From Emticicia sp. C21 (GTDB lineage Bacteria > Bacteroidota > Bacteroidia > Cytophagales > Spirosomataceae): DNA of 64,000 bases. The notes beneath the pieces are model-generated. The model had not been told where the DNA came from. It ran no database searches and saw only the letters and a list, made by a program, of their open reading frames with translations. Positions 21,632-57,939 of this stretch are shown here, piece after piece. Position numbers and translations under genes: made by a program. The stretch covers positions 124,353 to 188,352 of the forward strand of contig NZ_QVMT01000011.1 in assembly GCF_003418935.1 (NCBI RefSeq), in the 5' to 3' direction. The first letter of the stretch is position 1, and each line of letters opens with the position of its first letter.

Positions 21632-21796
21632 TTGAATGATTTAGTGAATGTGTGATTGAGTGATTATATTCATTAAAAACTCTTTTGCTAATTAAGGCAA
21701 TGAATCTATCTAAAAGGCAAAGAATGTTATGCAGAAAATTTTGTTGGTGACGATTTAAATCTAATCACTCAATCACTAAATCGCTCATTCACTCAA
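21632..21796. repeat. octamer-arm inverted repeat element, copy A
   Basis: The left arm (21632-21663) is four in-phase 8-mers: TTGAATGA, TTTAGTGA, ATGTGTGA, TTGAGTGA. The right arm (21765-21796) is the opposite strand form: TCACTCAA, TCACTAAA, TCGCTCAT, TCACTCAA. Over 37 aligned positions 30 can pair, around a spacer of about 100 nt. The element fills the adk-obg gap, with its right arm ending 11 nt before the obg start. Related copies lie at 30193-30306 and 57770-57939. Confidence 0.85.
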
Positions 21797-21807
21797 TTAA
21801 ATAGCTT

Positions 21808-22803
21808 ATGACAAGCAATTTTATAGATTACGTAAAAATAAATTGCCGTTCAGGCAATGGGGGGGCTGGGTCAAAGCATTTTCGCAGGGAAAAACACGTA
21901 CCTAATGGTGGGCCTGATGGTGGTGATGGTGGCCGGGGAGGCCATGTCATACTTAAAGGCAACTCTCAGCATTGGACACTTCTGCATTTGAAATACCGTA
22001 AGCATATTAAAGCTGAAAATGGTGTAGCAGGCGAGGGAGGAAGAAGAGCCGGAGCACAAGGAAAAGACGAGATTATAGAAGTACCACTTGGAACGGTAGC
22101 AAGAGATGCCGAAACAGGCGAAATCATTGGTGAAGTTACCCAGGATGGCGAAAAAATAGTTTTATTATCAGCCGGAAGAGGGGGATTAGGTAATTACCAT
22201 TTCAAAAACTCAACTAATCAGGCACCTGAGTACGCCCAGCCTGGCGAACCCGGAGAAGAAGCCTGGATAATATTAGAACTTAAAGTATTGGCAGATGTTG
22301 GCCTTGTAGGCTTCCCGAATGCCGGAAAATCAACACTTTTGTCGGTTGTTTCAGCTGCAAAGCCAGAAATCGCCGATTACCCTTTCACTACTCTTACGCC
22401 TAACTTAGGCGTGGTGGCCTATCGTGATTATAAATCTTTTGTAATGGCCGATATACCGGGTATTATTGAAGGTGCATCTGAAGGAAAAGGCCTTGGACTA
22501 CGTTTTCTTAGGCATATTGAGCGAAACTCAATCCTGCTATTTCTGGTTTCTGCCGATAGCGAAAATCCTTTAAAGGAATACAAAACCCTGCTCAAAGAAT
22601 TAAAACAGTACAACCCGGAACTACTCGATAAAAAGAGAATTTTAGGTATTTCGAAATGTGATTTGGTCGACGAGAAGCAAATCGCAAAAATTAAGAAGAA
22701 GATTCCAGTAGACTTGCCTTATGTATTCTTCTCTTCCTTTGCAAATCAGGGAATAGACGAATTGAAAGATTTAATCTGGAATAATATTCATGCTGCTAAT
22801 TGA
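21808..22803 (+). CDS. obgE: GTPase Obg/CgtA
   Basis: A 331-residue essential GTPase acting in large-subunit ribosome maturation and stress control. The N-terminal Obg domain (about 1-158) is glycine-rich: [30 protein letters not shown] and [10 protein letters not shown]. The G domain follows, with P-loop [11 protein letters not shown], switch [30 protein letters not shown], a SKCDLVD guanine-specificity motif and SSFANQGI. The C-terminal extension of some Obg proteins is absent, as is usual in Bacteroidota. It follows adk across a repeat element, so translation of obg starts just beyond that repeat's right arm. Confidence 0.97.
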
Positions 22804-22898
22804 TAAATAATTTATCAACGCTCAAAAGTATTTTATTCATTTTAGCTGATGATTTAAAATGCTGTATTTGAGGTAGATTAAAGAAGTTTAATCTGCGG

Positions 22899-23050
22899 CT
22901 TGTGGAATAATTCTTAACTTCGGAGTACAGAAGATGTCGTATGCCTTGCCATGATACCTAGGTGTTGTGGGTTTCTGTGTTATTGATTTATTTGTAGTTC
23001 TATGTGACTGAAGAATAATCAAGTATGAAAAAGTATATTTATTCCACAAG
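22899..23050. repeat. 12-bp perfect inverted repeat framing about 130 bp
   Basis: CTTGTGGAATAA (22899-22910) and TTATTCCACAAG (23039-23050) are perfect reverse complements. A separate hairpin, AGATTAAA-GAAG-TTTAATCT, lies just upstream at 22875-22894. No open frame of note lies inside and no target duplication is visible at the edges. It could be a structured leader or small RNA ahead of the esterase gene, or a small non-autonomous element. The rest of 22804-23093 shows no gene. Confidence 0.5.
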
Positions 23051-23093
23051 ACTAATAATTGATTGAGTGAACCTTTACTATTTAACTAAGACC

Positions 23094-25811
23094 ATGAAGA
23101 AAATACTTGTGGGCTTACTCCTGTTCGCAAATTCAAGTGTTTTTGCACAACTGATGATTACTTTTCCGATGAATCGGGCTGTTTTTCAGCGTAATAACTC
23201 GGGAGGGGGGGTAATTCCTATTGCCGGAACTTTTCAGACAAGAGTTGACAGAATTGATGCCCGACTCGTGGCTATAAAAGGAGGCTCAACAGTTGACTGG
23301 ATTCCTATATCGGTTAATCCAAACTTTGGAGGTTTCTCCGGAGGAATCTACGCAATAGGTGGATGGTACCGATTGGAAGTGAGGGCTATCTACAACAATA
23401 ATATTATCAGCACTGTTTCTATCGAAAAAGTGGGCTTAGGCGAGGTCTTTTTAATTGCGGGGCAGTCAAATGCGCAAGGCTACGAAGGCCGTGGCAATCC
23501 ACCAGCACTTGATGATAGAGTAAATGTCATTACTAATTTCTACTCTTTTGGACAGATTTCCGAAGTTCCTTTTCCCGTTGTTGGCCATCTTGATGAAAAT
23601 ATAAAAATAGCACCTTTAGGCAATGGTTCGTGGTGTTGGGGTAAATTAGGCGATTTACTAGCTAACAAGTTAGATGTGCCTATCATGTTTTTTAATGCAG
23701 CATTCGAAGCCCTTGGTATTGAAGAATGGAGTAAAAGTGCAAATGGAGAAGCGGGTAGAGATTTCTATTCCGGCAATTATGCAAAGCCTGGATACCCATT
23801 CGAAAATATCCGTAAATCGATGCATAACTATGCCAATATGTTTGGCGTAAGAGCCATTTTGTGGCATCAGGGAGAAACTGATAATGATAAAGGCACTAGT
23901 TTTGATATTTATCGCAACGCCTTGCAGTACGTGATTCAGCGGAGTAGAAATGATACCGGAAGAGATATGAGCTGGATGGTAAGCAAAGTTTCACGAACAA
24001 GAAGAGGAACTTCACAAACAATTATTGAGGCGCAAAAAGCAGTAATTAGAGAGTACCCTAATGTTTTTAATGGTCCTGACACCGATGATATTGTTCATCG
24101 TTCAGATGGGGTACACTTCGAAAGTTTCAGTCTTTTACAATTAGCCGAAGCCTGGAATGATAAACTTAATCAGGATTTTTTCATCAGATCTAATCCTATT
24201 CCGGCTTCATCTCCTTTGTCTTTTCAGATGAACTGCAATCCCGATAACGTTAATGCTCCTTTAAACATATTTATGCCTGATGGCTTTAGAGACTACTTTT
24301 GGACGAACGGCTTCGGGAATTTGAATAGTAGTTCGAATATTCAGATTAAAAATGGGTTTTTGAGAGGTAAAGCTATAGACTACCTTGGGAATGTATACTA
24401 TACAGCAGGAGTTAACTATGCAGGGGAAGTTATTCCTGATAGACCGTCTCTGACGGTAGAAGGTGCGACAGATTTTTGTCAGGGAGGAAGTGTAAGGCTT
24501 ACCTCATCTACTGATCAGGAAATTTCCTGGAATACAGGTGAATTTGGTAAGTCAATTGTAGCGTCGCAACCTGGTTATTATGTGGTTAACAGACATAACT
24601 ATTTAGGTTGTTTTAACACTTCTAATGGAGTTAATGTAACGGTTTACCCGAATCCGGAAGCTAAGATAGTAGCCGAAGGTCCAACAACCTTTTGTCAGGA
24701 TAATAATGTAAGTCTTCGTTCAACTACTGAGGCTGGCAATTTATGGAATACCGGACTGAGTAATCAAAGAATAACTGTAGATAGAAGCGGGGAATATTTT
24801 TTAAAGGTAAAGAATCAATTTGGTTGTGAAAGTATTTCTGAAAAAGTAGTAATAACTGTTAACCCTAAACCGGAGAAGCCTACTGTTACTGCTGATGGGC
24901 CAACAGTTTTTTGCGCTGATACCAGTGTAAACATTGCATCAGATGTTACAAATGAAATTGCCTGGAATACAGGCCAAACAGCGGCTCAACTCAGAATTAT
25001 CAACAGCGGCGATTTTTTTGTGACGGCTACTAACCAATATGGTTGCCAGCAGATTTCAAATACTATTTCAATCAAAGTAAATCCGATTCCGGCTAAACCA
25101 TCGGTTACAACCGATGGACCTGTTATCTTTTGTTATGGCGATAGTGTAAATCTATCAGCCACCAAAAGTGTTGGCTATATCTGGAACAATAATAGAACAA
25201 CACAGAGTTTCAAGGTAGGACTTTCTGGTGTATTCTCGGTGAAAACCCGTGACGAAAATGGATGCATTTCTCCTGTATCTGACGAAGTAAGAGTATCAGT
25301 AAAAGACAATCCATTAGATATAGATATATTTCAATCAGGGCCATATACGCTTGAGGCCCTTACTAACGGGCAAATAGATTCGAAATTTGAATGGTATAAA
25401 GATACTGTGCTGATACCTAAAGAAGAACGGGTAATAAAGGCTAAAGAATCAGGTTCTTATACCATTAAAGGTTCTATTTTATATTTGTTAGATGACGGTA
25501 CTTCACTTCGTTGCTATTCCAAATCTTCTGAACCTTATCTTTTCAAAATAGACCCTGCAGATGACGGGGCACGCGTTTTCCCCAATCCAACTGCTGATGA
25601 TATGGTGAATGTTGAAACACTTGAAGATCTGGAGGATGTGCAAATAACTTTTTATGATATGAGAGGTACTATTGTACGAGAGTACAAGATTTATAAATTT
25701 GACTCTCGAAAAACGCTGGAGTTGGCAAATCTACCGATGGGTAAATATATTGTCGACATCAGGAATAAAGACTATCATGTACTAAAACGTGTTTTTGTTG
25801 AACAAAAATAA
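23094..25811 (+). CDS. secreted sialate O-acetylesterase-like SGNH protein with Ig-like repeats and T9SS sorting domain, copy 1
   Basis: A 905-residue secreted protein. The signal peptide ends SSVFAQ (start MKKILVG at 23094). An N-terminal beta domain (about 25-110) precedes the SASA/SGNH esterase region: GEVFLIAGQSNAQG holds the nucleophile Ser, LWHQGETDN the oxyanion block, and SDGVHFE the Asp-His pair. Four repeats of about 72 residues follow (about 460-745), each with GPT-FC at the start and a second Cys (GC) near the end, resembling Ig-like/PKD modules. The C-terminus (VFPNPTADD... to the last Lys) is a type A T9SS sorting domain. It probably removes acetyl groups from glycans at the cell surface. 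Next to a paralog. Confidence 0.88.
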   Translation: MKKILVGLLLFANSSVFAQLMITFPMNRAVFQRNNSGGGVIPIAGTFQTRVDRIDARLVAIKGGSTVDWIPISVNPNFGGFSGGIYAIGGWYRLEVRAIYNNNIISTVSIEKVGLGEVFLIAGQSNAQGYEGRGNPPALDDRVNVITNFYSFGQISEVPFPVVGHLDENIKIAPLGNGSWCWGKLGDLLANKLDVPIMFFNAAFEALGIEEWSKSANGEAGRDFYSGNYAKPGYPFENIRKSMHNYANMFGVRAILWHQGETDNDKGTSFDIYRNALQYVIQRSRNDTGRDMSWMVSKVSRTRRGTSQTIIEAQKAVIREYPNVFNGPDTDDIVHRSDGVHFESFSLLQLAEAWNDKLNQDFFIRSNPIPASSPLSFQMNCNPDNVNAPLNIFMPDGFRDYFWTNGFGNLNSSSNIQIKNGFLRGKAIDYLGNVYYTAGVNYAGEVIPDRPSLTVEGATDFCQGGSVRLTSSTDQEISWNTGEFGKSIVASQPGYYVVNRHNYLGCFNTSNGVNVTVYPNPEAKIVAEGPTTFCQDNNVSLRSTTEAGNLWNTGLSNQRITVDRSGEYFLKVKNQFGCESISEKVVITVNPKPEKPTVTADGPTVFCADTSVNIASDVTNEIAWNTGQTAAQLRIINSGDFFVTATNQYGCQQISNTISIKVNPIPAKPSVTTDGPVIFCYGDSVNLSATKSVGYIWNNNRTTQSFKVGLSGVFSVKTRDENGCISPVSDEVRVSVKDNPLDIDIFQSGPYTLEALTNGQIDSKFEWYKDTVLIPKEERVIKAKESGSYTIKGSILYLLDDGTSLRCYSKSSEPYLFKIDPADDGARVFPNPTADDMVNVETLEDLEDVQITFYDMRGTIVREYKIYKFDSRKTLELANLPMGKYIVDIRNKDYHVLKRVFVEQK

Positions 25812-25925
25812 TTTTTTCGCCATTAAATAAAATTTTAATACTATTATCAACCGGACAGTGTTGTTATTCTTTGAGGGCATTTGTAAATTTGTTTCTCCAT
25901 GCAATAAATTTTAACCCAGGTGTAT

Positions 25926-28871
25926 ATGCTTAAAAAGAAATGGTTGGTAATAGTGTGGAGTTTTATTGCTTTCAATACCTACTCACAAATACAAATTACC
26001 TTCCCGGTTTCGCGAATCGTTTTTCAGAGGAATAATGCTAATCTGGCCAATGTAAATATTACAGGTAGTTATTTTCAGCAATTAGACCGCATCGATGCAC
26101 GCGCTTTTCCTGTTTATCCGGGCCAGGGTAATGAAGTTGGCTGGACAACCATACAGGACTACTTAACTACTGGTATTTTCAACGGATTTCTACAATTGAG
26201 TGGAGGGTGGTACAATATCGAAGTAAGAGGGGTTTTAAACGGGCAAGTAGTTACCTCATCCATACTTGAAAGAGTAGGGGTGGGCGAAGTATTTATTGTT
26301 GCAGGCCAGTCAAATGCCCAAGGTGATCCCAGTTATTCAGGCGGAGCAATTGGTGCTAGTGATGATCGCGTTTCTACTATAGATTATTATAATGCCGCAC
26401 TGAACGAAAACCAATTGCCATTCCAGTTTTCGCACATGAATAATTTCTCCCGAATGGCACCTTATAATTATGTGCCCTGGTTCTGGGGGCGATTAGGTGA
26501 TAAACTGGCACAAAAATATAATGTTCCTGTCTTATTTTATGGAGCAGCCCTAGGTGGAATTAATGTAAGTGCCTGGGAGAGGTCTTCGAGAGGAGAAGAT
26601 TTGCGTAAAGAATTACCTTCATTTATTGCTGTTGCTGGAATGCCTTTCAGAGCATTGCAAGCTGCGTTGCAACAATATGTTCCGCGCACAGGCGTACGGG
26701 CAGTACTTTGGCAACAAGGCGAAAGCGATGATCAGACTTCAGCTAATGCTTATTTTAACAGACTTAAAATAGTAATTGAAGCAAGTCGGAATAATTCAGG
26801 TAAAGGAGATTTGGCTTGGGTAGTTGCCCGCTCGTCTCGCAACCCGACTCCACATCAAAATGTAATTGATGGACAAAATATAACTATTGATCAGGTTCAT
26901 AATGTATTCAGAGGCCCTAATACTGATGAAATAACTGGTGCGAATTTCAGGGCTGATGGGGTACACTTTCATAACGAAGGACTAAACCGTGCCGCCGAGT
27001 ATTGGAATGATGCGTTGAACGATAATTTCTTTGCAAGCTCTCAGCCGTTGGAATCTAGGGGGTTAGTAAACGTCAGCTTATCTTGTAACCCTGCCAATCC
27101 TAACAATAAATTTACTATTCAGGTAAATGGCGATTACAGTAGCTTTAATTGGAGTAATGGGGTGAATGGTCGTTCAATTACAGTCAATAATGGAAGTTAT
27201 GTTGTCAAAACCACTGATTGGTATGGGAACTCACTCTTTTCACAACCAGTTCCTATTTCGCCAAATAATCCGGTAGTTCAACCTTCTGTTAATATTACTG
27301 GTCCGACTACTTTTTGTGATGGAGGAAGCGTAGCATTAATATCAAGTGAAGCTGGCGGAAATGTATGGAGCAATGGAGAACGAGGGCAAGCTATTGTGGC
27401 ACGTACGTCTGGCACTTATTCATTTACAAATTATACATTGAATGGTTGCCCATCGGTGTCTGGCTCTGTAAATGTCAATGTTAATCCTTTGCCACGTAAT
27501 AATATTTTGGTCAATAAAGATTTACCTATTTGTCCTGATGATAGTGTCATGTTGGTAACCGACAATTTTGAGAATGTATCTTATCAATGGAACACGAATG
27601 CCAACTCGCAGAATATCATAGTGAGAGATGCCGGGACATATAGTTTAAAACTTAGAGACCAGAATGGTTGTGAATCTACGAGTTTTATTAATGTAGGGCT
27701 TAGAGAGCGCCCGGTTACAAATATACTCCCTGATGGGCCTACCGTTTTTTGTTTGGGTAAAAGTGTGAATCTAAGTCCGAATGCCGATTTTAATGGATAT
27801 TTCTGGAGCAACGGAAGTACCAATAAAAATGTTAATATCAGAGCCAGTGGAGAGTACTCTTTAAGAGTTACGGATAATTTTGGATGCTTCTCGTTGCCGG
27901 TTTCACAAAATGTTACAGTAAATGCATTGCCGACTATTAAAATTGCAGCCACAGGTCTTGAACAATTTTGCCCGGGCAATGTGGTAAATCTTGAAGCAGC
28001 CTCTGACCAGAATTTAGTATATATGTGGAATACCGGAGCAGGATCTAAAGCTATTACTATAGCCAATCCAGGTCTTTATACTCTTCAGGTAAGAGATACC
28101 AATGGATGCGAATCTTTAGCCGATTCTGTAACTCTGAGCTACATTCCTCCGCCATCTGTTTCGATTTCAACTATAGATAATATTAATACTATTTGTGATG
28201 GTCTTAATGTAACCCTCAATGGCAGCAATGCCGTAAGTTATGCCTGGAATACCGGAGCAACAACAAAGGACATTGTAGTGGGCGAGGCAGGTACATATAC
28301 GCTTAAAATCAGGGATGAAAAAAACTGTGAATCAAATCCTGTTTCCTTTCAGGTATTCGTAAAAGATACGCCACCGGCGCCAACTTTAGAAAAAGATGGT
28401 GCTTATCAGGTAATAGCTATTCCGGCTACAAATATTCCGGGGCAGTATTTTAACTGGAAATTGGACGATGGGCCACTCCCTGATACATCAGAAGTTCTGA
28501 AAGTATCACGTCAGGGAAATTTTGCTGTTCGTACAGCCTTGAGATACAATAATACTAATAATGGTTCTTTGGTTTGTTATTCACCGTTTTCTCAAGTACT
28601 CAACTTCCTGATTCCAGCAGGTGATAATGGTCTTCGGGTCTATCCAAATCCGAACCCTACAGGAGAATTTACTATTGAGACTTTTGGAGATAATCCGAAT
28701 GCGAGAATTGATGTCTATTCTTTAAGCGGACTAAATGTTTACACAGGTGCAATAGCTGAATTAAAGCAGAAACGAGAACTGAATCTCAAGACGCTTGAGC
28801 CCGGTGTCTATATTATCCGGTTGACTAGCGGAGATTTTAAAGCGACACAGAAACTTTTCATAAAATACTAG
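25926..28871 (+). CDS. secreted sialate O-acetylesterase-like SGNH protein with Ig-like repeats and T9SS sorting domain, copy 2
   Basis: A 981-residue paralog of the upstream gene with the same plan: signal peptide ending FNTYSQ; N-terminal ITFPVSRIVFQRNN, matching the neighbour's ITFPMNRAVFQRNN; esterase motifs GEVFIVAGQSNAQG, LWQQGESDD and RADGVHFH; five Ig-like repeats instead of four (each FC/IC...GC); and a T9SS tail starting YPNPNPTGEF and ending in Lys-Tyr. The catalytic Ser and Asp-His are intact, so both copies look active. ATG 25926 is preferred over a GTG 6 nt upstream. The gene ends at a strong terminator. Natural substrates, such as acetylated polysaccharides, cannot be fixed from sequence. 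Confidence 0.88.
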   Translation: MLKKKWLVIVWSFIAFNTYSQIQITFPVSRIVFQRNNANLANVNITGSYFQQLDRIDARAFPVYPGQGNEVGWTTIQDYLTTGIFNGFLQLSGGWYNIEVRGVLNGQVVTSSILERVGVGEVFIVAGQSNAQGDPSYSGGAIGASDDRVSTIDYYNAALNENQLPFQFSHMNNFSRMAPYNYVPWFWGRLGDKLAQKYNVPVLFYGAALGGINVSAWERSSRGEDLRKELPSFIAVAGMPFRALQAALQQYVPRTGVRAVLWQQGESDDQTSANAYFNRLKIVIEASRNNSGKGDLAWVVARSSRNPTPHQNVIDGQNITIDQVHNVFRGPNTDEITGANFRADGVHFHNEGLNRAAEYWNDALNDNFFASSQPLESRGLVNVSLSCNPANPNNKFTIQVNGDYSSFNWSNGVNGRSITVNNGSYVVKTTDWYGNSLFSQPVPISPNNPVVQPSVNITGPTTFCDGGSVALISSEAGGNVWSNGERGQAIVARTSGTYSFTNYTLNGCPSVSGSVNVNVNPLPRNNILVNKDLPICPDDSVMLVTDNFENVSYQWNTNANSQNIIVRDAGTYSLKLRDQNGCESTSFINVGLRERPVTNILPDGPTVFCLGKSVNLSPNADFNGYFWSNGSTNKNVNIRASGEYSLRVTDNFGCFSLPVSQNVTVNALPTIKIAATGLEQFCPGNVVNLEAASDQNLVYMWNTGAGSKAITIANPGLYTLQVRDTNGCESLADSVTLSYIPPPSVSISTIDNINTICDGLNVTLNGSNAVSYAWNTGATTKDIVVGEAGTYTLKIRDEKNCESNPVSFQVFVKDTPPAPTLEKDGAYQVIAIPATNIPGQYFNWKLDDGPLPDTSEVLKVSRQGNFAVRTALRYNNTNNGSLVCYSPFSQVLNFLIPAGDNGLRVYPNPNPTGEFTIETFGDNPNARIDVYSLSGLNVYTGAIAELKQKRELNLKTLEPGVYIIRLTSGDFKATQKLFIKY

Positions 28872-28899
28872 AAGGGGTGAATATTCACCCCTTTTTTAT
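28872..28899 (+). terminator. intrinsic terminator after esterase copy 2
   Basis: A perfect 22-bp palindrome (28872-28893) lies directly after the stop codon and is followed by TTTTATTTTG. Its T-run abuts the -33 box of the nuo promoter. Confidence 0.9.
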
Positions 28900-28929
28900 T
28901 TTGTTTCTAAACTTTCCTTAGTAATTTTG
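28900..28929 (+). promoter_or_regulatory. predicted nuo operon promoter
   Basis: TTTG at 28900-28903 and TAATTTTG at 28922-28929 match both boxes of the Bacteroidota promoter consensus exactly, with an 18-nt spacer. Transcription would begin about 90 nt before nuoA. Confidence 0.75.
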
Positions 28930-29029
28930 AAACGCAATTGTTTTGCAACCAAACGAAGCATTTAATTGTTATTAATGTAGGCGAAAAACTAATAAAAGCC
29001 CTATATTACTAATTACTATTACAGTTATT

Positions 29030-29404
29030 ATGAAAGAATACTTGCCGTCAGATTTTCTCCCTATTTTGGTGCAGTTAATCGCTGCTATTGGTTTTATAGT
29101 CTTTACAATGATCGTTACACACTCAATAGGTCCTAAAAGACATAGTGCTAAAAAAGACGACCCTTTTGAGTGTGGTATTGAGGCACAAGGTGATGCCAGA
29201 ACTCCTATTTCAATCAAATACTTTCTGATAGCTATCCTGTTTGTGCTTTTCGACGTAGAGATTATTTTTATGTATCCTTGGGCCGTAAACTTTATGAAGT
29301 TAGGCTGGTTTGGTTTCGTGGAAATGATACTTTTTGTTGCTTTATTGATGGCTGGGTTCTACTACATCATTAAGAAAGGTGTACTAACCTGGGACAAAGA
29401 ATAA
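29030..29404 (+). CDS. nuoA: NADH-quinone oxidoreductase subunit A
   Basis: A 124-residue membrane subunit of respiratory complex I, at the junction of the peripheral and membrane arms. Three helices are seen. The loop FECGIEAQGDARTPISIKYF contains the conserved ECG motif, and FVLFDVEIIFMYPWAV is the typical second helix. The gene is separated from nuoB by 243 bp that hold a terminator-like hairpin and a degenerate repeat, which is unusual inside a nuo operon. Confidence 0.95.
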   Translation: MKEYLPSDFLPILVQLIAAIGFIVFTMIVTHSIGPKRHSAKKDDPFECGIEAQGDARTPISIKYFLIAILFVLFDVEIIFMYPWAVNFMKLGWFGFVEMILFVALLMAGFYYIIKKGVLTWDKE

Positions 29405-29410
29405 GTACAC

Positions 29411-29440
29411 GTCGGGTTATCAAATCCGACAATTTTGTTT
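29411..29440 (+). terminator. terminator-like hairpin between nuoA and nuoB
   Basis: GTCGGGTT (29411-29418) pairs with AATCCGAC (29423-29430), with one G-T wobble and a 4-nt loop, followed by AATTTTGTTTT. It may act as a partial terminator, lowering expression downstream of nuoA. Confidence 0.5.
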
Positions 29441-29463
29441 TAGGTGTATTAGTCTTGAACTTT

Positions 29464-30192: not shown

Positions 30193-30306
30193 TTTAGTGA
30201 TTGAGCGATTTAGCGGCCGCCGCGCGGTGAATGAGTGATTAACTAAAAGTTTGAATTAATCACTTAATGTAAAATCACTAAATCACTCATTCACTCAATC
30301 ACTCAA
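30193..30306. repeat. octamer-arm inverted repeat element, copy B, with a GC-only block
   Basis: Left arm: TTTAGTGA, TTGAGCGA, TTTAGCGG, then a run of 15 G/C bases (30213-30227, including a NotI site GCGGCCGC), then TGAATGAGTGATTAA. Right arm: TCACTTAA at 30260-30267, then four in-phase 8-mers at 30275-30306 (TCACTAAA, TCACTCAT, TCACTCAA, TCACTCAA). It fills the nuoB-nuoC gap, starting 2 nt after one gene and ending 9 nt before the next. Confidence 0.85.
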
Positions 30307-49865: not shown

Positions 49866-49936
49866 TAAAATATTTTACCGTTTAAAAGCATTACAACAAA
49901 ATATTTGCTTACAAAAGGATTGACCAGCAACAAACA

Positions 49937-50368: not shown

Positions 50369-50403
50369 TTCCTCTCAACTCAATTAATTTGTTTCAAATC
50401 ATA

Positions 50404-51630
50404 ATGAATTCCTGGCTAAATATTCCTGCAGACTCTGATTTCTCTATTCATAATCTTCCGTTTGGTATATTTAGTATTGGCAAAAACTCACCTAGAGTAG
50501 GCGTTCGCATAGGTGATTTTGTAATAGATTTAGAACAATTACGAAAGTTCGGTTTATTAGAAGTTCCTCGCAACATATTTAACCAAACGCATCTGAATGC
50601 CTTTATCAACTTAGGCAAAAAGAAAACTACAGCCATCAGGCTTGAGTTACAGGAATGGCTTATACAAGAAAAATCCCCTCTTAAAAGATATTTCAATCAG
50701 GCGTTTTATCCTATCGAATCTGTTACCATGCATCTACCTGTAAAGGTAGGCGATTATACTGATTTTTATTCCAGTCTGGAACATGCTACCAATGTAGGCA
50801 AGATGTTCCGACCTGACAACCCTTTAGTGGCTAACTGGAAGCATATACCCATTGCTTATCACGGACGTGCCAGTTCGATTGTAGTTTCAGGCACACCCAT
50901 TATCCGTCCAAAAGGGCAGATAAAATCTGCTGATAGTCCAATACCTTTTTTCTCTCCAACTAAAGAAATGGATTTTGAAGTGGAAATCGGTGCAATTGTA
51001 GGAAAAAATTCAATCTTAGGTGAAAGTATAAGTACAGAAGATGCCGAAAGCTATGTCTTTGGTTTGGTATTGTTTAATGACTGGTCGGCTCGTGATATAC
51101 AACGATGGGAGTATCAACCTTTGGGGCCATTTCTAGGTAAAAACTTTGCTTCTTCTATTTCACCATGGGTAGTTACCTTAGAAGCTTTGGAGCATTTCAG
51201 AACTGAAACTCCTTTGCAAGAGCCTAAGCCTTTGCCTTACCTGGCATTTGAAGGGAAGAAAAATTTTGATATAGCTTTAGATGTCCACCTTTCTTTACCT
51301 AATAATCAAAGCTATATTATATCCCGTACCAATTTTAAATATATGTACTGGAATCTGGCTCAACAGATAGCCCATCATACTATGAATGGTTGTAACCTTA
51401 AAATAGGCGATATTCTGGCTTCGGGTACTATTAGTGGGCCAATGCCCAATAGTAATGGTTGTTTACTGGAACTAACTTTAGGAGGAAAACAACCCGTAAT
51501 GTTAGATAATGGCCAACAAAGAGGATTTTTAGAAGATGGTGATACCTTAGCTATTAAGGGATACTGTGAGAAAGATGGGATAAGGATAGGGTTTGGTGAG
51601 GTCAGCGGTAAAATAGTTGCAAGTCGTTGA
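50404..51630 (+). CDS. fahA: fumarylacetoacetase
   Basis: A 408-residue hydrolase splitting fumarylacetoacetate into fumarate and acetoacetate, the last step of tyrosine breakdown. Blocks: GDYTDFYSSLEHATNVGKMF, HIPIAYHGRASSIVVSGTPI, the metal-binding DFEVEIGAIVG, and VLFNDWSARDIQRWEYQPLG with GPFLGKNFASSISPWV. The N-terminal SH3-like domain (about 15-115) is present. ATG 50404 is chosen over a TTG at 50389. It is 35 nt downstream of marR. Maleylacetoacetate isomerase is not encoded here, so the step between hmgA and fahA must be served from elsewhere. Confidence 0.95.
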   Translation: MNSWLNIPADSDFSIHNLPFGIFSIGKNSPRVGVRIGDFVIDLEQLRKFGLLEVPRNIFNQTHLNAFINLGKKKTTAIRLELQEWLIQEKSPLKRYFNQAFYPIESVTMHLPVKVGDYTDFYSSLEHATNVGKMFRPDNPLVANWKHIPIAYHGRASSIVVSGTPIIRPKGQIKSADSPIPFFSPTKEMDFEVEIGAIVGKNSILGESISTEDAESYVFGLVLFNDWSARDIQRWEYQPLGPFLGKNFASSISPWVVTLEALEHFRTETPLQEPKPLPYLAFEGKKNFDIALDVHLSLPNNQSYIISRTNFKYMYWNLAQQIAHHTMNGCNLKIGDILASGTISGPMPNSNGCLLELTLGGKQPVMLDNGQQRGFLEDGDTLAIKGYCEKDGIRIGFGEVSGKIVASR

Positions 51631-51690
51631 TTTATTTGTAATTTACGCTTCCAAAGAACTGTTGTATTCATCAACAAACCTCACGACCTT

Positions 51691-52857
51691 ATGACCAATA
51701 CGATTATTATTATCATTTGTTCGCTGATACTTATCGCTTACTTATTTGATATTTCCTCTAAAAATACCAGAATTCCTGGCGTTGTTTTATTGCTTACTGT
51801 AGGTATACTGGCCAAAATTATCACTAATAATCTGAATTTTCGGGTTCCTAATTTAGAACCTTATCTTCCTGTAGTTGGCACAATCGGTTTGATACTTATA
51901 GTATTAGAAGGTTCGCTTGAATTAGAAATTAATGCCCAGAAACAGAAGCTATTTTCATCTACCGTAAAAAGCGCTTTTCTAGGACTGGCTCTTTTTAGTA
52001 TAATTTTAACTGTAGGATTATATTATCTGACAAATAAGCCTATTCTTACCTGTCTTATTAATGCTATTCCTTTAGGAATCATCAGTAGTGCCATTGCTAT
52101 CCCTAGTGTAAAAAATCTCTCTTCATATAACCGGGAATTTGTAATTTACGAAAGTTCGATGTCTGATATTCTTGGTATTATTTTCTTTAATTTCCTTGTC
52201 CTGCATAATTCATTTGGTTTAGGTACTTTTACTTCATTTTTATTTGATATTATCATTATCATAGCCTTATCTGTTGTGGCAAGTATTGGGTTAGGAAGTA
52301 TGATTAGTAAACTTAATCATCATATCAAATATATTCCAATTGTTACGATTCTGATTTTGTTGTATGTAATTACGAAGATATATCATTTACCCTCTTTAAT
52401 GCTTGTACTGATTTTTGGCTTATTTTTAAACAATGTCCATCTGATAAAATTCGATTTTGTAAAAAAATGGATAAATCCAGAAAGTATCAAAGCAGAAGTT
52501 AACTCATTTGAGCATTTGATTGCCGAGGTAACTTTTGTTATCAGGTCTTTCTTTTTCATTATGTTTGGTTATTATACCAACCTTAAAGCTTTATTAAGCT
52601 TGTCTGATTTTGTCAATGCTATTCTGATATTGGTATTCATCTTTGCAGGCCGATATTTGATTTTTACCTTATTAAAAATCAAAACAGAACCTTTGCTTTA
52701 TATTGCTCCAAGAGGACTGATTACCATTTTACTCTTTCTGGCTATACCAATCTCACATCAAATTTTAGAGGTAAATAAAGGTTTACTGACTCAGGTAATA
52801 TTCCTGACTGCATTTGCCATGATGTTTGGTTTGATTCGCCATAAAAAGCCAGCTTAA
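51691..52857 (+). CDS. cation:proton antiporter-like membrane protein
   Basis: A 388-residue protein with about 11-12 membrane helices, of the monovalent cation:proton antiporter (CPA) superfamily. The start resembles NhaP/KefB proteins (TRIPGVVLLLTVGILA). The middle has PLGIISSAIAIPSV where CPA families have an unwound helix, and the end has IAPRGLITILLFLAIPI, a CPA1-type motif. The clear ND or DD pair of well-studied antiporters is not obvious: the SSMSDILGIIFFN segment holds the single Asp. No RCK/TrkA-N domain follows. Ion specificity unknown. It is 60 nt after fahA and 11 nt before the flavin reductase gene. Confidence 0.82.
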   Translation: MTNTIIIIICSLILIAYLFDISSKNTRIPGVVLLLTVGILAKIITNNLNFRVPNLEPYLPVVGTIGLILIVLEGSLELEINAQKQKLFSSTVKSAFLGLALFSIILTVGLYYLTNKPILTCLINAIPLGIISSAIAIPSVKNLSSYNREFVIYESSMSDILGIIFFNFLVLHNSFGLGTFTSFLFDIIIIIALSVVASIGLGSMISKLNHHIKYIPIVTILILLYVITKIYHLPSLMLVLIFGLFLNNVHLIKFDFVKKWINPESIKAEVNSFEHLIAEVTFVIRSFFFIMFGYYTNLKALLSLSDFVNAILILVFIFAGRYLIFTLLKIKTEPLLYIAPRGLITILLFLAIPISHQILEVNKGLLTQVIFLTAFAMMFGLIRHKKPA

Positions 52858-52868
52858 TTTTAATCACT

Positions 52869-53771
52869 ATGCTTACACTCAACCCTAAAGATTTAGATGC
52901 CAGAGTCTTTTATAGTTACCTTACCGGAACTGTGGCTCCACGTCCTATTGCTTTTGTCAGTAGTATTGACAAGGCAGGTAATGTCAATCTAAGTCCTTTC
53001 AGTTTTTTTAATATCATGGGTATTAATCCACCTTTATTGGTATTTGCGCCCAATAATCGTGGGCGAGATGGATCAAAAAAGGACACTACTCTCAATATTA
53101 GTGAAGTACATGAAGTAGTGATCAATATGGTTGATTTTGCCATGGTACAACAAATGTCACTGGCAAGTGTCGAGTATCCCCGAGGTACCAATGAGTTTGT
53201 TAAAGCAGGATTTACTCCTGAACCGTCTCTACTGGTTACTCCGCCAAGGGTAAAAGAATCACCAGCACAATTTGAGTGTAAAGTACTGGAGGTGCGAGAA
53301 ATTGGGACGATGAACCTTTATATATGCCAGATAATAATGGCGCATTTCTCTGAACATATTATTGGGGAAAATGGTAAAATAGACCAACGAAAAACTGATT
53401 GGGTTGCACGGCTGGGAGCAGATTGGTATGCACATATCAGCGAAGGAGCCATGTTTGAGGTAGAAAAGCCAAATACAAAAATTGGTATTGGTTATGATGC
53501 TATTCCGGAAAGTATCCGATTATCTAAAATATTAACAGGTAATCATCTGGGACAATTGGGAAATATTGAGGCTTTACCTACTAAGGAAGAAGTACTGGCA
53601 TTCAGGCAAACTCCTTTGCTGAAAGATATTTTTGATCAGGTTATGAACGGCTGTGCTTATCTGGAGAATCTATTGCATGACGAAGCACAAAGGCTTTTGG
53701 CGCAGAACAAAGTGAAAGAAGCATGGTTGGTGCTTTTGCAAAGTCAGAACGATTTTTTGAAAGATGATTAA
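52869..53771 (+). CDS. flavin reductase family (FMN-binding split-barrel) protein
   Basis: A 300-residue protein with a flavin reductase-like domain at about residues 10-200. The marks are TGTVAPRPIAFVSSIDKAGN, NLSPFSFFNIMGINPPLLVF and GSKKDTTLNISEVHEVVINM, typical of the Bacteroidota FMN-binding family. The C-terminal third (about 215-300) is helical and lacks known motifs. Proteins of this type pass electrons from NAD(P)H to FMN for use by monooxygenases or other flavoenzymes. The physiological partner is unknown. It could serve aromatic degradation given the cluster upstream, but the antiporter gene lies between. Confidence 0.85.
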   Translation: MLTLNPKDLDARVFYSYLTGTVAPRPIAFVSSIDKAGNVNLSPFSFFNIMGINPPLLVFAPNNRGRDGSKKDTTLNISEVHEVVINMVDFAMVQQMSLASVEYPRGTNEFVKAGFTPEPSLLVTPPRVKESPAQFECKVLEVREIGTMNLYICQIIMAHFSEHIIGENGKIDQRKTDWVARLGADWYAHISEGAMFEVEKPNTKIGIGYDAIPESIRLSKILTGNHLGQLGNIEALPTKEEVLAFRQTPLLKDIFDQVMNGCAYLENLLHDEAQRLLAQNKVKEAWLVLLQSQNDFLKDD

Positions 53772-53788
53772 AATTGATAAATAAAGAA

Positions 53789-53836
53789 ACCCCACTTTCC
53801 AAATCAGCAAGTCTGATTATTCAGAAAATGGGGTTA
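53789..53836. terminator. bidirectional terminator between flavin reductase and lipoprotein genes
   Basis: An outer stem (53789-53800 with 53825-53836, one mismatch) encloses an inner AATCAG/CTGATT stem. The minus-strand side is followed by a T-rich tail (TTTCTTTATTT), so it mainly serves the small lipoprotein gene and can also end the plus-strand operon. Confidence 0.75.
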
Positions 53837-53876
53837 AAACTTTCATGGTTTATTTAAATTAGTAGATAGATATATG

Positions 53877-54056
53877 TTAGCCTTTATTTCCTCCGCCACC
53901 GAACATTTTAAAAAGACCCACAATAACCAACACAATTACAATTAATACAACTACAATACCTGTATTAAAACCTGCTTTAAAAATACCAGCAATGGCATCA
54001 CAAGATGAAATAATCAACACAAAGCAGATGACTAAGAGATAATTTATAAGTTTCAT
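53877..54056 (-). CDS. small lipoprotein with a membrane segment
   Basis: A 59-residue gene found by direct translation; it is below the usual ORF length cut. The start MKLINYLLVICFVLIISSC gives a signal peptide with a lipobox ending at Cys19. DAIAGIFKAGFNTG follows, then a second hydrophobic stretch (IVVVLIVIVLVIVGLF) and a Gly-rich tail KMFGGGGNKG. Bacteroidota carry many such short lipoproteins with C-D/E-A-I-x-G-I-F-K-A-G, sometimes misnamed phosphatidate cytidylyltransferase. That recollection needs a database check. It has its own terminator and a separate upstream region. Function unknown. Confidence 0.75.
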   Translation of the reverse strand: MKLINYLLVICFVLIISSCDAIAGIFKAGFNTGIVVVLIVIVLVIVGLFKMFGGGGNKG

Positions 54057-54140
54057 GGCTGTTATAAAGTTTTAGTGAATTTAAGTAACTGGAATAACTA
54101 AAAATCTGTGCCAGCCAACGTATAAGGCACTTTTGCACAT

Positions 54141-54632
54141 TTATGGAGTAGGTCTCCACTTGAATGATTGCGCGTCTATCGCTCGCATAGTACAAAGTAT
54201 ACCATTCAGATGATCATATTCATGCTGTAATAATTCAGAGAGTGCATCTTCCATATACCAGTTTTGCTCTTGCCAGTTTTCATCTAAATATTTCATTACC
54301 AAAGATTTATGCCTTTTCACCTTAACCAGCAAATTAGGGAAACTCATGCAATCATCCCATAGTTCAAACATTTCGTCACTCAAATTTTCAAAGGCGGGAT
54401 TTATTATTATTACAGGGTGGTCTATATTTACATAAATCAGACGTTTCATAATACCCAGTTGTGGGGCGGCAATGCCCCTGCCAAATTTGTATTTTGCTCG
54501 TATTCCCTCCATTACATTATGTAGATTTTTTACCCACTCTGTTACTTGTGGTAACTCTTCTTTCGTAATGGGCTCACAAACTTCATACAATCTGGGGTCT
54601 CCTAATAAAATCAAATCTTCTAGATGTTTCAT
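54141..54632 (-). CDS. def: peptide deformylase-like protein
   Basis: A 163-residue metalloenzyme of the peptide deformylase family, which removes formyl from initiator Met. Motif 1 is GRGIAAPQLG. Motif 2 should be EGCLS but reads DDCMS, keeping the metal-binding Cys. Motif 3 is LLQHEYDHLNGIL with the HExxH set intact. Conserved outer residues are therefore altered at motif 2, which sometimes marks a second, divergent deformylase. Whether this is the housekeeping enzyme depends on finding another def in the genome. It is flanked by a small lipoprotein gene (same strand) and divergent from the OmpA gene. Confidence 0.8.
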   Translation of the reverse strand: MKHLEDLILLGDPRLYEVCEPITKEELPQVTEWVKNLHNVMEGIRAKYKFGRGIAAPQLGIMKRLIYVNIDHPVIIINPAFENLSDEMFELWDDCMSFPNLLVKVKRHKSLVMKYLDENWQEQNWYMEDALSELLQHEYDHLNGILCTMRAIDAQSFKWRPTP

Positions 54633-54842
54633 ACTTATGCTCGACGATGACTATTTCTTAAATTGTAGGATAATTATTTCAATAAAAAAACATAGGCAAC
54701 CCTTCTTGTTTGAAAGATTTATAATAATTTTCATTCATGTTTCGTAATATATGCGAAACCGATTTTAACAAATATTAAGCAATTGTGTTAAACTAATTGA
54801 ATGAGCTGTTTCGTTAAGTTCTGTGCAATAAATTGTATGCCC

Positions 54843-56117
54843 ATGAAAAGAATATTTCTGCTAATTTTCATCTTATGTAATATACAGAGTTTTGGTCAGA
54901 CCATTACTCATACACCCGAGATTGATGACCAGGTAACTTATGATACAGATATTGAAAAAGTAGAGTTACGCGACGAATTTACCATAATTTATTTCAGCTA
55001 TCAATACAGTAACCGCAGAAGTCAGAATTATAATCTTCCAATTCCTTTGCCTAATCCAAGGCAACAGACCTCTACTGCCACCATTTCTATCAATCCTAAA
55101 AGCTATCTGAATGGAAATGGGAAACGGTTTAAGTATATCAGGTCGACAGGTATTCCTGAGTTACCGGATTCGAAACCAGTTTCACCGGGACAGGCCTATC
55201 GCTTTACAGTCTATTACGAAAGACTTGACCCAGGTATCGAACTTTTTAATCTGATTGAGGGGAAAAATTCACCAGAACAAACCCTGCAGTTCTGGAATTT
55301 CTATGGCGTTCATATAAAAAATCCATTAAGAAAAATACCAACTACTCCTACGGGGCCTGTGACATTGACTATTAAAGGGAAAATTCTGGATGCAAAAACA
55401 CAGAAGCCTGTTAAAGGTAAAATAATTTATCAGTTTGATAAGAATGCCGCTAAAACAGGCTCTGCTTTGGTTTCTGCTACCGGAGATTTCTCATTTGCCT
55501 TAAGTCCGGATGCTTATACTTTTACAGCCTCTGCTAATGGTTATGATTCGGAACAAGCTAGCCTGGACTTATCAAAAATTAAACGAAACCAGCAGTTTAC
55601 ACAGAATATTTATCTGAATCCGGTAGTTCAAAAAACTACTCCAAGGCCTGCCCCAAAAGAAACGCCTAAGAAAGACTTGCCAAAAATTGAAGTACCGAAA
55701 GTTGAAACTCCTGCAATTGACTCAACCTCTATTGTAGCTCCAAAGGAGGAAGCAGCTCCTGTGAAAATAGAAGAGAATAAATTCAGACTAGATAAGGTCT
55801 ATTTCAATATTGGTGAATCAGGCTTATTATCTGAGTCATTTGAGCAATTGAATGGCTTACTGAAAATGATGAAGGACAGCCCAACCATGAATATTATCAT
55901 AGAAGGACATACAGACAATATTGGTGACCCCGAGCAAAATAAGCGTTTATCTTTAGAGCGAGCTTTTAATGTACGAGAATACCTCATTAAAAAGGGCATT
56001 GCAGGCAAACGTATTCAATTTAAAGGCTATGGAGATACTAAGCCTATTGCAGATAATAATTCAGAAGAAGGTAAGAAATTGAACAGGAGAGTAGAGTTTG
56101 TGATTTTGAATCCATGA
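54843..56117 (+). CDS. OmpA family outer-membrane protein
   Basis: A 424-residue exported protein. The signal peptide ends NIQSFGQ. An N-terminal beta-rich region of unknown type (about 20-180) is followed by a carboxypeptidase-regulatory-like domain (about 180-255, with TIKGKILDAKTQKPVKGKII). Next is a Pro/Lys/Glu linker (about 265-315), then an OmpA C-terminal peptidoglycan-binding domain (IIIEGHTDNIGDPEQNKRLS, RAFNVREYLIKKGIAGKRI, NRRVEFVIL). The linker and peptidoglycan domain suggest it ties the outer membrane to the cell wall. The start at 54843 gives the signal peptide; ATG 54837 would add two residues. A palindromic repeat begins 11 nt after the stop. Confidence 0.88.
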   Translation: MKRIFLLIFILCNIQSFGQTITHTPEIDDQVTYDTDIEKVELRDEFTIIYFSYQYSNRRSQNYNLPIPLPNPRQQTSTATISINPKSYLNGNGKRFKYIRSTGIPELPDSKPVSPGQAYRFTVYYERLDPGIELFNLIEGKNSPEQTLQFWNFYGVHIKNPLRKIPTTPTGPVTLTIKGKILDAKTQKPVKGKIIYQFDKNAAKTGSALVSATGDFSFALSPDAYTFTASANGYDSEQASLDLSKIKRNQQFTQNIYLNPVVQKTTPRPAPKETPKKDLPKIEVPKVETPAIDSTSIVAPKEEAAPVKIEENKFRLDKVYFNIGESGLLSESFEQLNGLLKMMKDSPTMNIIIEGHTDNIGDPEQNKRLSLERAFNVREYLIKKGIAGKRIQFKGYGDTKPIADNNSEEGKKLNRRVEFVILNP

Positions 56118-56128
56118 TTTTCATTCAA

Positions 56129-56223
56129 CCGTGGAGTGACGCTGAGTTTTGCGTAAAGTTACATAGAATTTATATGGAAGAATACTCTGTGTAACCCCGT
56201 GCAAAACTCTGCGTTACTCCGTG
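56129..56223. repeat. imperfect palindromic intergenic element, copy D
   Basis: The left arm (56129-56170) and right arm (56181-56223) are imperfect reverse complements. They share GGAGT-ACGC-GAGTTTTGC-GTTACA-AGA with about ten mismatches, around a 10-nt spacer. It fills the gap between two convergent genes, ending 10 nt from the nnr stop. The CTCTGCGTTACTCCGTG wording is GC-richer than the surroundings and differs from the octamer-arm elements. It may also act as a terminator. Confidence 0.75.
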
Positions 56224-56233
56224 ATAAAAAAAA

Positions 56234-57751
56234 TTAAAACCTGATACTCTCGATTATATCACTTGCAACCATCGATGTAGTGCCTTTTAATTGGGCGGCT
56301 CTGTCTCCGGCTAGCCCATGCTCATATACGCCCAAGATTGCTGCTTCTTCCGAAGTATAGCCTTGCGCTAAAAGTGCTAATATCATACCTGTCAGAACAT
56401 CCCCACTACCACCTTTAGCCATACCTGCATTTCCGGTAGAGTTAAAGTGGATTGTGCCATCGGGCAGTGCAACTGCAGTAAATGCACCTTTCAGGCAAAC
56501 TATACATTTATATTCTGTTGCAAATTGGCTTAAGATGTCTAATTTTTCATAATCATTTTCCCATTTCTTACCAATCAAACGCTGAAATTCTTTAGGATGA
56601 GGTGTTAATATCACACCTTTGGGTATTAGCTTTAAAAGCTTTTTATCCGAAGCTATGATATTTAGTGCATCCGCATCTATTACAATAGGTACTTCTATTT
56701 TTTTCAAGAGCTGTTCAACTAACCCAACAGTTTCAGGTTTTGTACCTATTCCACAACCAATACCTATAGCCTGATAACTTTCTAATTTTGGTAGTTCTTC
56801 TAAAACGTCAGTGCTTTTATTTGGTAAGCACATAGCTTCAGGAACAGAGGTTTGCAGAATCTCATAGCCGCACCCAGGAGCATAAACAGTTACTTTTCCA
56901 ACTCCTGAGCGTAAACAGGCTTTTGTAGAAAGTACTGCAGCGCCTATCATACCATAACTACCTGCGATCATTAAGGCATGACCAAAGTTTCCTTTGTTAG
57001 CAAATTTGTTGCGTGGCTTTATTAAAGCTTTTGCAGTTTCACCATCCGTGTACACGTATTGGCTTTTTAAGCTTTGAATAAAGCCTTCATTAAGTCCTAT
57101 ATTTACAATTGTCCAATCGCCTACAAAATCAGCATTTTGGGGTAAGACAAAAGCTAATTTAGGTGATTGAAACGAAATGGTGTGAGTAGCCTTGAGTATA
57201 GTATCATCTTTGTTATTTAACGAATCTGCAAATAGGCCAGTCGGAATATCAACTGTTACAATTTCGGCTTTGGAATCATTCAGTTTTTCAACTACTGATT
57301 TTATCAAATCCTCTAAAGGTCGGGAGAGCCCGGCTCCTAATATCGCATCAATTACTAAATTGTTTGGCTGAAAATCTGGGATTTCATTAATATGATTAAT
57401 CCACTTTGGCTGAATTTTATTTTTTAATCTTGCAAGATTTATCTGAAAGTTGGTTGATTGTTTAGACGCATAGTTAATAGCAAACACTTCTAATTCATAT
57501 CCTAAAGCATATAACATACGGGCTATGGCTAATCCATCGCCACCATTATCTCCTAATCCACAAATGATTAGTAGCTTTTTATAAGAAACCGGAAAATGCT
57601 GAATAAAACTACTTACAAATGCTCTTGATGCTCGTTCCATCAAATCAATAGAAGCAATTGGTTCATGGGCGATGGTATATTCATCTGCTTCTTTTATCTC
57701 CGAAATATAATTACCTTCCTGTGTCTGCTTTCTTGTTAATAAAATTTTCAT
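56234..57751 (-). CDS. nnr: bifunctional NAD(P)H-hydrate epimerase / ADP-dependent dehydratase
   Basis: A 505-residue metabolite-repair enzyme. The N-terminal YjeF epimerase domain (about 1-215) has CGLGDNGGDGLAIARMLY and VDAILGAGL. The C-terminal ribokinase-like domain (about 225-505) has AGSYGMIGAAVLSTKACLRSG, VILTPHPKEFQRL and the GSGDVLTGMILALLAQG substrate motif. Together they repair hydrated NAD(P)H using ADP. A longer frame from 57832 runs through a repeat element, so MKILLTRKQTQ at 57751 is preferred. The repeat's left arm lies 18 nt upstream of this start. The gene is convergent with ompA. Confidence 0.94.
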   Translation of the reverse strand: MKILLTRKQTQEGNYISEIKEADEYTIAHEPIASIDLMERASRAFVSSFIQHFPVSYKKLLIICGLGDNGGDGLAIARMLYALGYELEVFAINYASKQSTNFQINLARLKNKIQPKWINHINEIPDFQPNNLVIDAILGAGLSRPLEDLIKSVVEKLNDSKAEIVTVDIPTGLFADSLNNKDDTILKATHTISFQSPKLAFVLPQNADFVGDWTIVNIGLNEGFIQSLKSQYVYTDGETAKALIKPRNKFANKGNFGHALMIAGSYGMIGAAVLSTKACLRSGVGKVTVYAPGCGYEILQTSVPEAMCLPNKSTDVLEELPKLESYQAIGIGCGIGTKPETVGLVEQLLKKIEVPIVIDADALNIIASDKKLLKLIPKGVILTPHPKEFQRLIGKKWENDYEKLDILSQFATEYKCIVCLKGAFTAVALPDGTIHFNSTGNAGMAKGGSGDVLTGMILALLAQGYTSEEAAILGVYEHGLAGDRAAQLKGTTSMVASDIIESIRF

Positions 57752-57769
57752 CAAATTTGCGCTGAATAA

Positions 57770-57939
57770 TTTAGTGAATGAGTGATTGGGTGATTTGTAA
57801 TTAATTATTCTATAAATAAAACTATCTTTCAATGAATATCTCTTAATATCAAGAGATTGTTCAGAGATTAAGTAAAATTATTATCATTTATATAAAGTGT
57901 AAAGATTTTAATTGAGTTTATATTCACTCAATCACTAAA
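57770..57939. repeat. octamer-arm inverted repeat element, copy C
   Basis: The left arm (57770-57797) is in-phase 8-mers TTTAGTGA, ATGAGTGA, TTGGGTGA, then TTTG. The right arm (57924-57939) is TCACTCAA, TCACTAAA, preceded by ATAT. The spacer is about 125 nt. It occupies the gap between divergent nnr and the VOC gene, ending 12 nt before the VOC start codon and 18 nt above the nnr start. Confidence 0.8.

Follow-up and report, generated by a model that had tools for sequence, protein, structure and literature searches.

Several kinds of small repeat have been described between the genes of bacteria. According to one comparative account, repetitive extragenic palindromes (REPs) lie mostly downstream of genes, and REP ends can supply stop codons (PMC3733652). 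Direct repeats of the heptamer TAACTGA are reported from Beggiatoaceae, cyanobacteria and five Bacteroidetes (PMC4679880). Here we analysed a window of 64,000 nucleotides from Emticicia sp. C21 (Bacteroidota, Cytophagales; contig NZ_QVMT01000011.1, positions 124,353 to 188,352), in which an initial annotation had noted three loci with facing arrays of an 8-bp unit. All three are present where they were placed (21632..21796, 30193..30306 and 57770..57939, hereafter copies 1 to 3), each with inverted TTNAGTGA arrays. This octamer element resembles known small bacterial repeats, but its build is unusual.

With REPs and REPINs, as that account describes them, the octamer element shares a high copy number, inverted pairs as well as singles, variable spacers and an intergenic location mostly downstream of coding regions (PMC3733652); since REPs lie mostly downstream of genes, its placement is not unique. 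Its arms are inverted relative to each other (56 pairs in 1.39 Mb), but they are not self-palindromic, even imperfectly, and have no GTAG/CGTC foot; the octamers are degenerate, and copy number does not track Y1 genes. An arm can pair little with itself because C occurs almost only at position 6 of the unit (43 of 445 units); the exceptions are GC-rich blocks in some arms, which may be REP-like. TIRtrons, which are terminal inverted repeats (TIRs) beside TIRYT transposases, likewise make up dispersed families of long inverted repeats with no relation to REPs, but they are described as flanking a Y1 transposase gene (PMC3733652), whereas octamer arms flank none of the five Y1 loci of the genome. 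As a short non-coding element with TIRs, the octamer element fits the description of a miniature inverted-repeat transposable element (MITE), except that no target-site duplication was found. The BrickBuilt MITE of Porphyromonas gingivalis is likewise non-coding and intergenic, with inverted ends and tandem repeats. Its description places a 23-nt tandem repeat between leader and tail, and the element 49-591 nt from genes (PMC4596501), whereas in the octamer element the tandem units form the ends, the copies have no common middle and the median distance from the stop codon in tandem gaps is 4 nt. The TAACTGA repeats are similar in forming short-word intergenic tandem arrays (of as many as 43 copies in certain Bacteroidetes and cyanobacteria), in carrying stop codons in all three frames in one orientation, and in having some close relatives that are repeat-free with shorter gaps. 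In that work, however, the unit is of 7 bases, repeats are nearly only direct, and in the best-studied genome they lie mostly just upstream of starts (PMC4679880); the octamer element, with its 8-base unit, inverted pairs and position behind stop codons, is not an array of this heptamer. No named REP or MITE family with an octamer architecture, and no published account of the present family, emerged from a literature search, which left subscription journals mostly outside its reach; the initial annotation had known of none either.

We read the three loci as copies of a dispersed, non-coding, non-autonomous MITE/REPIN-like palindrome of Cytophagales, in which the octamers are putative recognition sites for a trans-acting protein, and give this reading a probability of about one half. 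It would explain why the arms have a common form, a constrained word and no covariation, why several loci have gained length and why the spread is patchy. Host function at gene ends and local growth by slippage and template switching, the main rivals, each explain a part.

The arrays are far more numerous than chance predicts. A 16-mer of two octamers (TTNAGTGATTNAGTGA, at most two mismatches) matched the window 16 times, against a mean of 0.82 in 100 shuffles (maximum 4). Fifteen matches fall within the three loci, two of them (30252 and 57860) in spacers outside the main arms, and one, at 23055, lies elsewhere. Scanning the whole genome (G000; 6.64 Mb, the window being on contig C3) for inverted pairs with a gap of at most 60 nt gave 23 forward and 24 reverse matches, counting overlapping registers and both strands, and the reversed control gave 0 and 0. 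A separate reversed-pattern control gave 117 and 156 matches, against 231 and 266 for the true pattern; it does not serve as an independent control, since the same arrays are also matched by the reversed pattern, in a different register. Across 994,698 sampled bases we found 53 groups of octamers (12, 23 and 18 in the stretches sampled) compared with 0-3 per stretch in five shuffles each. In agreement with the intergenic location first proposed, 51 of the 53 lie mostly in an intergenic gap; one is in an open reading frame (ORF) and one is mixed. A larger sample covered 1,394,698 bases (C3, part of C1, all of C23 and three smaller stretches), of which 100 kb, holding 5 of the 56 pairs, was picked for known copies and the C1 and C23 stretches were picked after first pattern matches. 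It holds 82 groups, 56 with an inverted pair. The three long stretches hold 51 of these pairs in 1,294,698 bases, which scales to about 260 inverted pairs per genome.

The arms have a common form built on a constrained word. The consensus of 445 units from G000 is DTKAGYGA: position 1 is T in 291, A in 121 and G in 33; position 3 is G in 283, T in 156, A in 5 and C in 1, that is, G or T in 439; and position 6 is T in 399, C in 43, A in 2 and G in 1. As unit parsing gave a small credit to G or T at position 3, we recounted with that position left free. In C23 this returned G 251, T 130, A 46 and C 28, against G 26, T 43, A 44 and C 27 in one shuffle; the excess is thus almost all G or T. Among 46 orthologous unit pairs, whose unit alignment can err, position 3 differs as G/T 18 times and otherwise 7 times. 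Arm anatomy was compared in 67 paired elements (the 56 of G000 plus 11 from genomes G001, G002 and G008). Exactly four octamers make up 44 of the 67 left arms and 33 of the 67 right arms; A stands just outside the arm in 82 and 90%, and the inner flank is TTA (T76 T84 A61 and T76 T91 A75 percent). Comparison of the 56 inverted pairs bears out the earlier view that what is conserved is the octamer arms and not the spacers.

Each copy had been proposed to fold as one large hairpin, and a search for compensatory changes had been suggested. As RNA, the copies do fold well (z = -5.13, -4.68 and -5.68 against shuffles for copies 1, 2 and 3), as they would because inverted repeats fold well by build. 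The suggested search, however, went against pairing as a conserved feature, since partner arms do not covary. We used the 25 elements of G000 in which each arm has four units, excluding the other 31 of the 56, which have different unit numbers. The covariation score was 0.074, against a shuffled mean of 0.090, with 487 of 500 shuffles as high, and 83.4% of cells were paired against a shuffled mean of 85.0% (498 of 500 as high). Neither value rose above shuffles when three elements with a GC-rich, shifted or disturbed arm were dropped by judgement, leaving 22. Across all 56 elements an arm resembled its own partner no more than a stranger's (0.684 versus 0.688; 1305 of 2000 permutations as high), and two sets of Flectobacillus elements (14 and 7) showed no excess either (1845 and 3199 of 5000 permutations as high). 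Sliding the partner arm did favour the helix (covariation 0.074 versus 0.013-0.038 in the 25 elements), a result that any inverted consensus gives. Unpaired cells cluster at octamer positions 1 and 3, and most core columns are near constant. Compensatory helix changes of the kind seen in covarying structured RNAs were thus not found, and a hairpin under selection as the main constraint was rejected by the own-versus-stranger test and by the pair counts on aligned elements. Two observations had been named in advance as counting against the proposal: arms without covariation, which is what we found, and random placement without inverted pairing, which we did not find. In the main, it is the sequence that is conserved and not the fold. 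Together with the constrained word, the lack of covariation suggests that sequence, rather than fold, is what something recognises.

The element is placed at gene ends (gene ends were taken from our own ORF caller, at least 90 aa, with no annotation used). The 56 pairs fall in 44 tandem, 11 convergent and 1 divergent gaps, with 651, 151 and 160 such gaps in the background (p = 9e-4 for the divergent class). In tandem gaps the element begins a median of 4 nt past the stop codon and leaves a median of 27 nt to the start that follows; it is nearer to the stop in 37 of the 44 (p = 5e-6), and 33 of the 44 copies lie within 8 nt of the stop. These orientations bear on invertons, promoter segments flipped by a recombinase acting at the arms. 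Invertons are common in Bacteroidota, and inverted arms around variable spacers in intergenic DNA would suit them. However, 11 convergent cases and a single divergent one are the reverse of what a promoter switch needs, and at copy 1 the spacers of G001 and G008 align with no change of orientation; we consider invertons most improbable.

Placement behind stop codons, with near absence from divergent gaps, is also what would be expected of a host-functional gene-end element, a transcribed hairpin or protein-bound array serving mRNA 3'-end stability, processing or transcription insulation. The strong folds of the window copies and the constrained position 3 fit such a role, as does the rarity of terminator-like hairpins in the tandem gaps that carry the element (2 of 43, whereas 86 of the remaining 402 tandem gaps with at least 60 bp have one; p = 0.008); short tandem gaps have such a hairpin in 5 of 266 cases. 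In convergent gaps, however, the difference is not significant (2 of 10 with the element versus 57 of 158; p = 0.50). A run of at least 6 T in 8 bases follows one arm in 13 of the 56 copies, including copy 3, but 43 of the 56 have no such run on either side. Between the nuoB- and nuoC-like genes that flank copy 2, and between the adk- and obg-like genes that flank copy 1, a strong terminator would do harm. The absence of covariation also speaks against a host function. Taken together, the placement, hairpin and T-run data argue against the element acting in general as a strong terminator and favour a niche in tight junctions. An intrinsic terminator proper (a GC-rich hairpin with a U-run) was rejected, given the AT-rich arms, the T run in only 13 of 56 copies and the position of copy 2 between nuo genes. 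Host function at gene ends we regard as rather unlikely.

Orthologous gaps, compared at species level and with no base-exact empty site, show that the element adds length relative to some empty relatives. The gap at C3:79534 is 205 bp, against 75 in G002 and 65 in G008, and 71 bp remain beside the element; the 65-bp gap of G008 keeps a possible scrap of another repeat. At C3:90115 the gap is 114 bp, against 19 in G002. At C3:154543, where copy 2 separates the nuoB-like from the nuoC-like gene, it is 125 bp, against 41 and 41 in the element-free genomes G006 and G003 of the same genus. Because of the shorter gaps in these relatives, the element looks inserted, and presence and absence at these three loci fit insertion. 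The element also persists at orthologous sites. Identity between species is 0.74 for arms and 0.55 for spacers (8 comparisons). We do not take this difference as proof, since arms of the family align well whichever two are compared; ranked against the arms of other loci, orthologous arms reach a mean percentile of 0.70 (16 comparisons), so that part of their likeness is that of the family. No clean base-exact empty site was found between two Flectobacillus genomes about 91% alike (two 80-kb stretches, with two and three groups).

At several loci the same spot carries, in different species, octamer arms, a TTGTCTGAACTTTGATTTA... palindrome, a GTGAATTAGCGAA... palindrome, or one of these nested in octamer arms. 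Such a spot, occupied across species but not always by the same repeat, can also be counted in favour of host function. Many Flectobacillus copies have octamer arms around a GTAGAGACGC repeat pair and a two-way terminator, whereas one minimal Flectobacillus copy, L272, has only TTATTTTAAAATAA between its arms. The nested repeats and this minimal centre suggest that some of the unrelated spacers are later insertions into the centre; the others may reflect decay, native DNA or capture.

Several observations weigh against our reading. Copies 1 and 3 misfit simple insertion: the gap of copy 1 (C3:145977) is 183 bp, against 84 and 101 bp in two non-carriers, with only 18 bp beside the element, and that of copy 3 (C3:182104) is 200 bp, against 178 bp in the armless G001 (gaps of 829 bp in G006 and 841 bp in G003 are not comparable). 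At four other loci the armless G001 has another palindrome instead, in gaps of 126, 327, 219 and 175 bp. Spacers are unrelated between copies except for nested repeats, which is unusual for a young MITE family. The flanks of the 56 elements show no excess of matches at k = 2-9, as a target-site duplication would give, although old copies or slipped ends could hide one. No mover-like gene, as expected of an autonomous copy, was found between arms 250-4500 bp apart in the loci examined; three such wide pairs were seen, one of them enclosing a gene, yicC. In a third set of Flectobacillus elements (12) partner arms show a slight excess of similarity over strangers (53 of 5000 permutations as high). 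The bias at position 3 is less clear in the smaller stretches from relatives, being weak in that of G001 (T 19, G 19, A 13, C 7 versus T 14, G 14, C 11, A 9). Finally, single arms exist, several with four units, and some arrays are expanded, to 71 units at C12:403061-403628 and to 11 at C1:193200; slippage thus also shapes the arms.

The expanded arrays are what would be expected if inverted arrays grew locally from short seeds, microsatellite-like, by slippage and template switching at the replication fork, with no transposition. Such growth would also account for unit numbers that are uncorrelated between partner arms (r = -0.04), for unrelated spacers with no target duplication, and for two single copies in which a rare variant is common to both arms (G008 near 5823 and G222 near 109357). 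Template switching, however, predicts that partner arms should be more alike than strangers, the opposite of what we see in Emticicia. Nor would local growth explain the common four-unit arm with its A and TTA boundaries, the same words at many unlinked loci and in several genera, or the extra length where relatives look empty. We think it unlikely as the origin of the element.

The distribution of the element is patchy. Counting the genome of the window, a 17-mer from the arm occurs in 59 of the 200 family genomes and in 14 of the 36 genera, and its reversed control gave one match in one genome. Of ten other Emticicia genomes, five are without the 17-mer and two have one match, a patchiness within the genus that argues against host function. 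A 21-mer form was found in 85 stretches among 84,980 species genomes, in a search that may omit records very close to the genome of the window. The 80 matches listed are all from Bacteroidota: Emticicia, Flectobacillus, a record named Cellulophaga sp. BC115SP, Pontibacter, Mucilaginibacter, Spirosoma and a Bacteroidetes metagenome-assembled genome. The BC115SP records include L241 and further ones between L236 and L305. Over 8 kb the genome from which L241 comes shares 91% identity with Flectobacillus sp. BAB-3569, so that its Cellulophaga label looks wrong. By eye, the arms of Flectobacillus copies share a form peculiar to them, which is suggestive of copying within a genome. Carriage by phage was rejected, as one 21-mer found no stretch in the viral contigs searched.

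We looked for the mover among Y1 transposases of the IS200/IS605 kind, since a REPIN- or TIR-type element could be moved by a REP-associated tyrosine transposase (RAYT) or a TIRYT. Inverted pairs, singles and downstream placement are typical of REP families (PMC3733652), and the genome has five Y1_Tnp matches. All five are on other contigs, in accordance with the earlier remark that the window holds no RAYT (the scan covered Y1_Tnp only), and no arms lie within about 1.5 kb of any of the five loci. Nor, read by eye, do arms and Y1 genes co-occur across the 200 family genomes. G011 (13 arm matches), G131 (9) and G138 (4) carry arms with no Y1 match at E 0.001, and G083 has 49 arm matches and one weak Y1 match; conversely, G003, G005, G006 and G009 (8-10 Y1 matches each) and G007 (one) are non-carriers. 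With arms that are moreover not self-complementary and lack a GTAG or CGTC foot, movement by a Y1 transposase appears very unlikely.

The trans-acting protein that we favour may instead be a non-RAYT transposase or a DNA-nicking enzyme. Each end of the element, about 36 bp long, consists of an A, typically four DTKAGYGA octamers and TTA, with two ends facing around a centre that may once have been short and AT-rich (as TTATTTTAAAATAA in L272) and now often holds other repeats or unrelated DNA. The enzyme would read the octamers as several binding sites and would place the element into tight gene junctions. Copies would persist behind stop codons, where promoters are spared, so that the placement could reflect target choice or such survival. 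Transcribed copies can fold into long intercistronic hairpins, putatively tuning their neighbours. A bolder version, which we hold tentatively and think rather unlikely, is a new class of mobile palindrome with modular ends. A Cytophagales enzyme would read DTKAGYGA arrays and insert the element behind stops in tight junctions, and these would turn into lasting sites at which other repeat families nest inside it, entire intergenic regions being made up of nested inverted layers. Should our reading be right, hundreds of inserted hairpins sit right behind stops in some Bacteroidota genomes, even between nuo genes, and their mover differs from the known RAYT. The element would then be a test case for how small repeats reach gene ends, and a warning that inverted intergenic arms alone are no evidence for structured RNAs, terminators or invertible promoters.

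In the window, copy 1 (21632..21796) lies between an adk-like adenylate kinase gene (stop 21624), beginning 7 nt past its stop codon, and an obg-like GTPase gene (start 21808). Its left arm (21632..21666, plus strand) reads TTGAATGA TTTAGTGA ATGTGTGA TTGAGTGA and TTA, and its right arm (21762..21796, minus strand) reads TTGAGTGA ATGAGCGA TTTAGTGA TTGAGTGA and TTA. Copy 2 (30193..30306) lies between the nuoB-like (stop 30190) and nuoC-like (start 30316) genes. Its left arm (30193..30216, plus) has the octamer units that had been described, TTTAGTGA TTGAGCGA TTTAGCGG, but continues into a GC-rich block inside the arm, GCGGCCGCCGCGCGGTG (30213..30229, plus), like blocks in one or both arms of other copies; its right arm (30275..30306, minus) reads TTGAGTGA TTGAGTGA ATGAGTGA TTTAGTGA. 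Copy 3 (57770..57939), the sole divergent case among the 56 pairs, is followed by a T run and lies between a YjeF/NAD(P)H-hydrate dehydratase gene (minus strand, start taken as 57751) and a glyoxalase-fold gene (plus strand, start 57952). Its left arm (57770..57793, plus) is TTTAGTGA ATGAGTGA TTGGGTGA and its right arm (57924..57939, minus) is TTTAGTGA TTGAGTGA. The initial annotation had given two to four units per arm and spacers of about 17-125 nt. More exactly, copy 1 has four units per arm and copy 3 three left and two right, and the range of spacers needs widening for the 130 nt of copy 3.

GC-rich blocks (GAGCGGCCGCCGCKGCGGTGA or similar) occur in some arms, on one or both sides. Blocks of the form GCGGCCGCCGCKGCGGTGA or similar lie inside octamer arms at 30213-30229 of the window, in L041, at C1:510227 and at C23:264394, and similar ones lie inside the arms of other palindrome families. 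The 71-unit array, built of TCACTAAA, spans nearly the whole gap between two same-strand genes.

Other repeats share these junctions. A second palindrome family (TTGTCTGAACTTTGATTTACCTGATT...AATCAGGTAAATCAAAGTTCAAGACAA, roughly 9-base periodic), seen for example at C3:39939-40141 of G000 and with counterparts in G001 and G008, nests within octamer elements or takes the same spot in relatives. A third (GTGAATTAGCGAATGGTGAATTA..., about 8-base periodicity) is likewise nested or at the same spot, at C1:756115 and C1:794163 of G000 and in the G008 counterpart of C3:90121. Further REPIN-like inverted pairs with self-palindromic arms (GTAGAGACGTATTGCAATACGTCTC; CAGCGACTGAAGTCGCCGTCTAAGATAACAAAGG) are found at C1:661516, C23:483356, C23:635928 and elsewhere in G000. 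Layered gaps of Flectobacillus (L262, L241, L258, L274, L297 and L306) combine octamer arms, GTAG-type repeats and a central two-way terminator, whose stem varies by locus with, by eye, both sides changing together. Overall, inverted repeats with a score of at least 13, octamer elements included, occur in 143 of 629 gaps of 25-600 bp, compared with 0 of 629 shuffled gaps.

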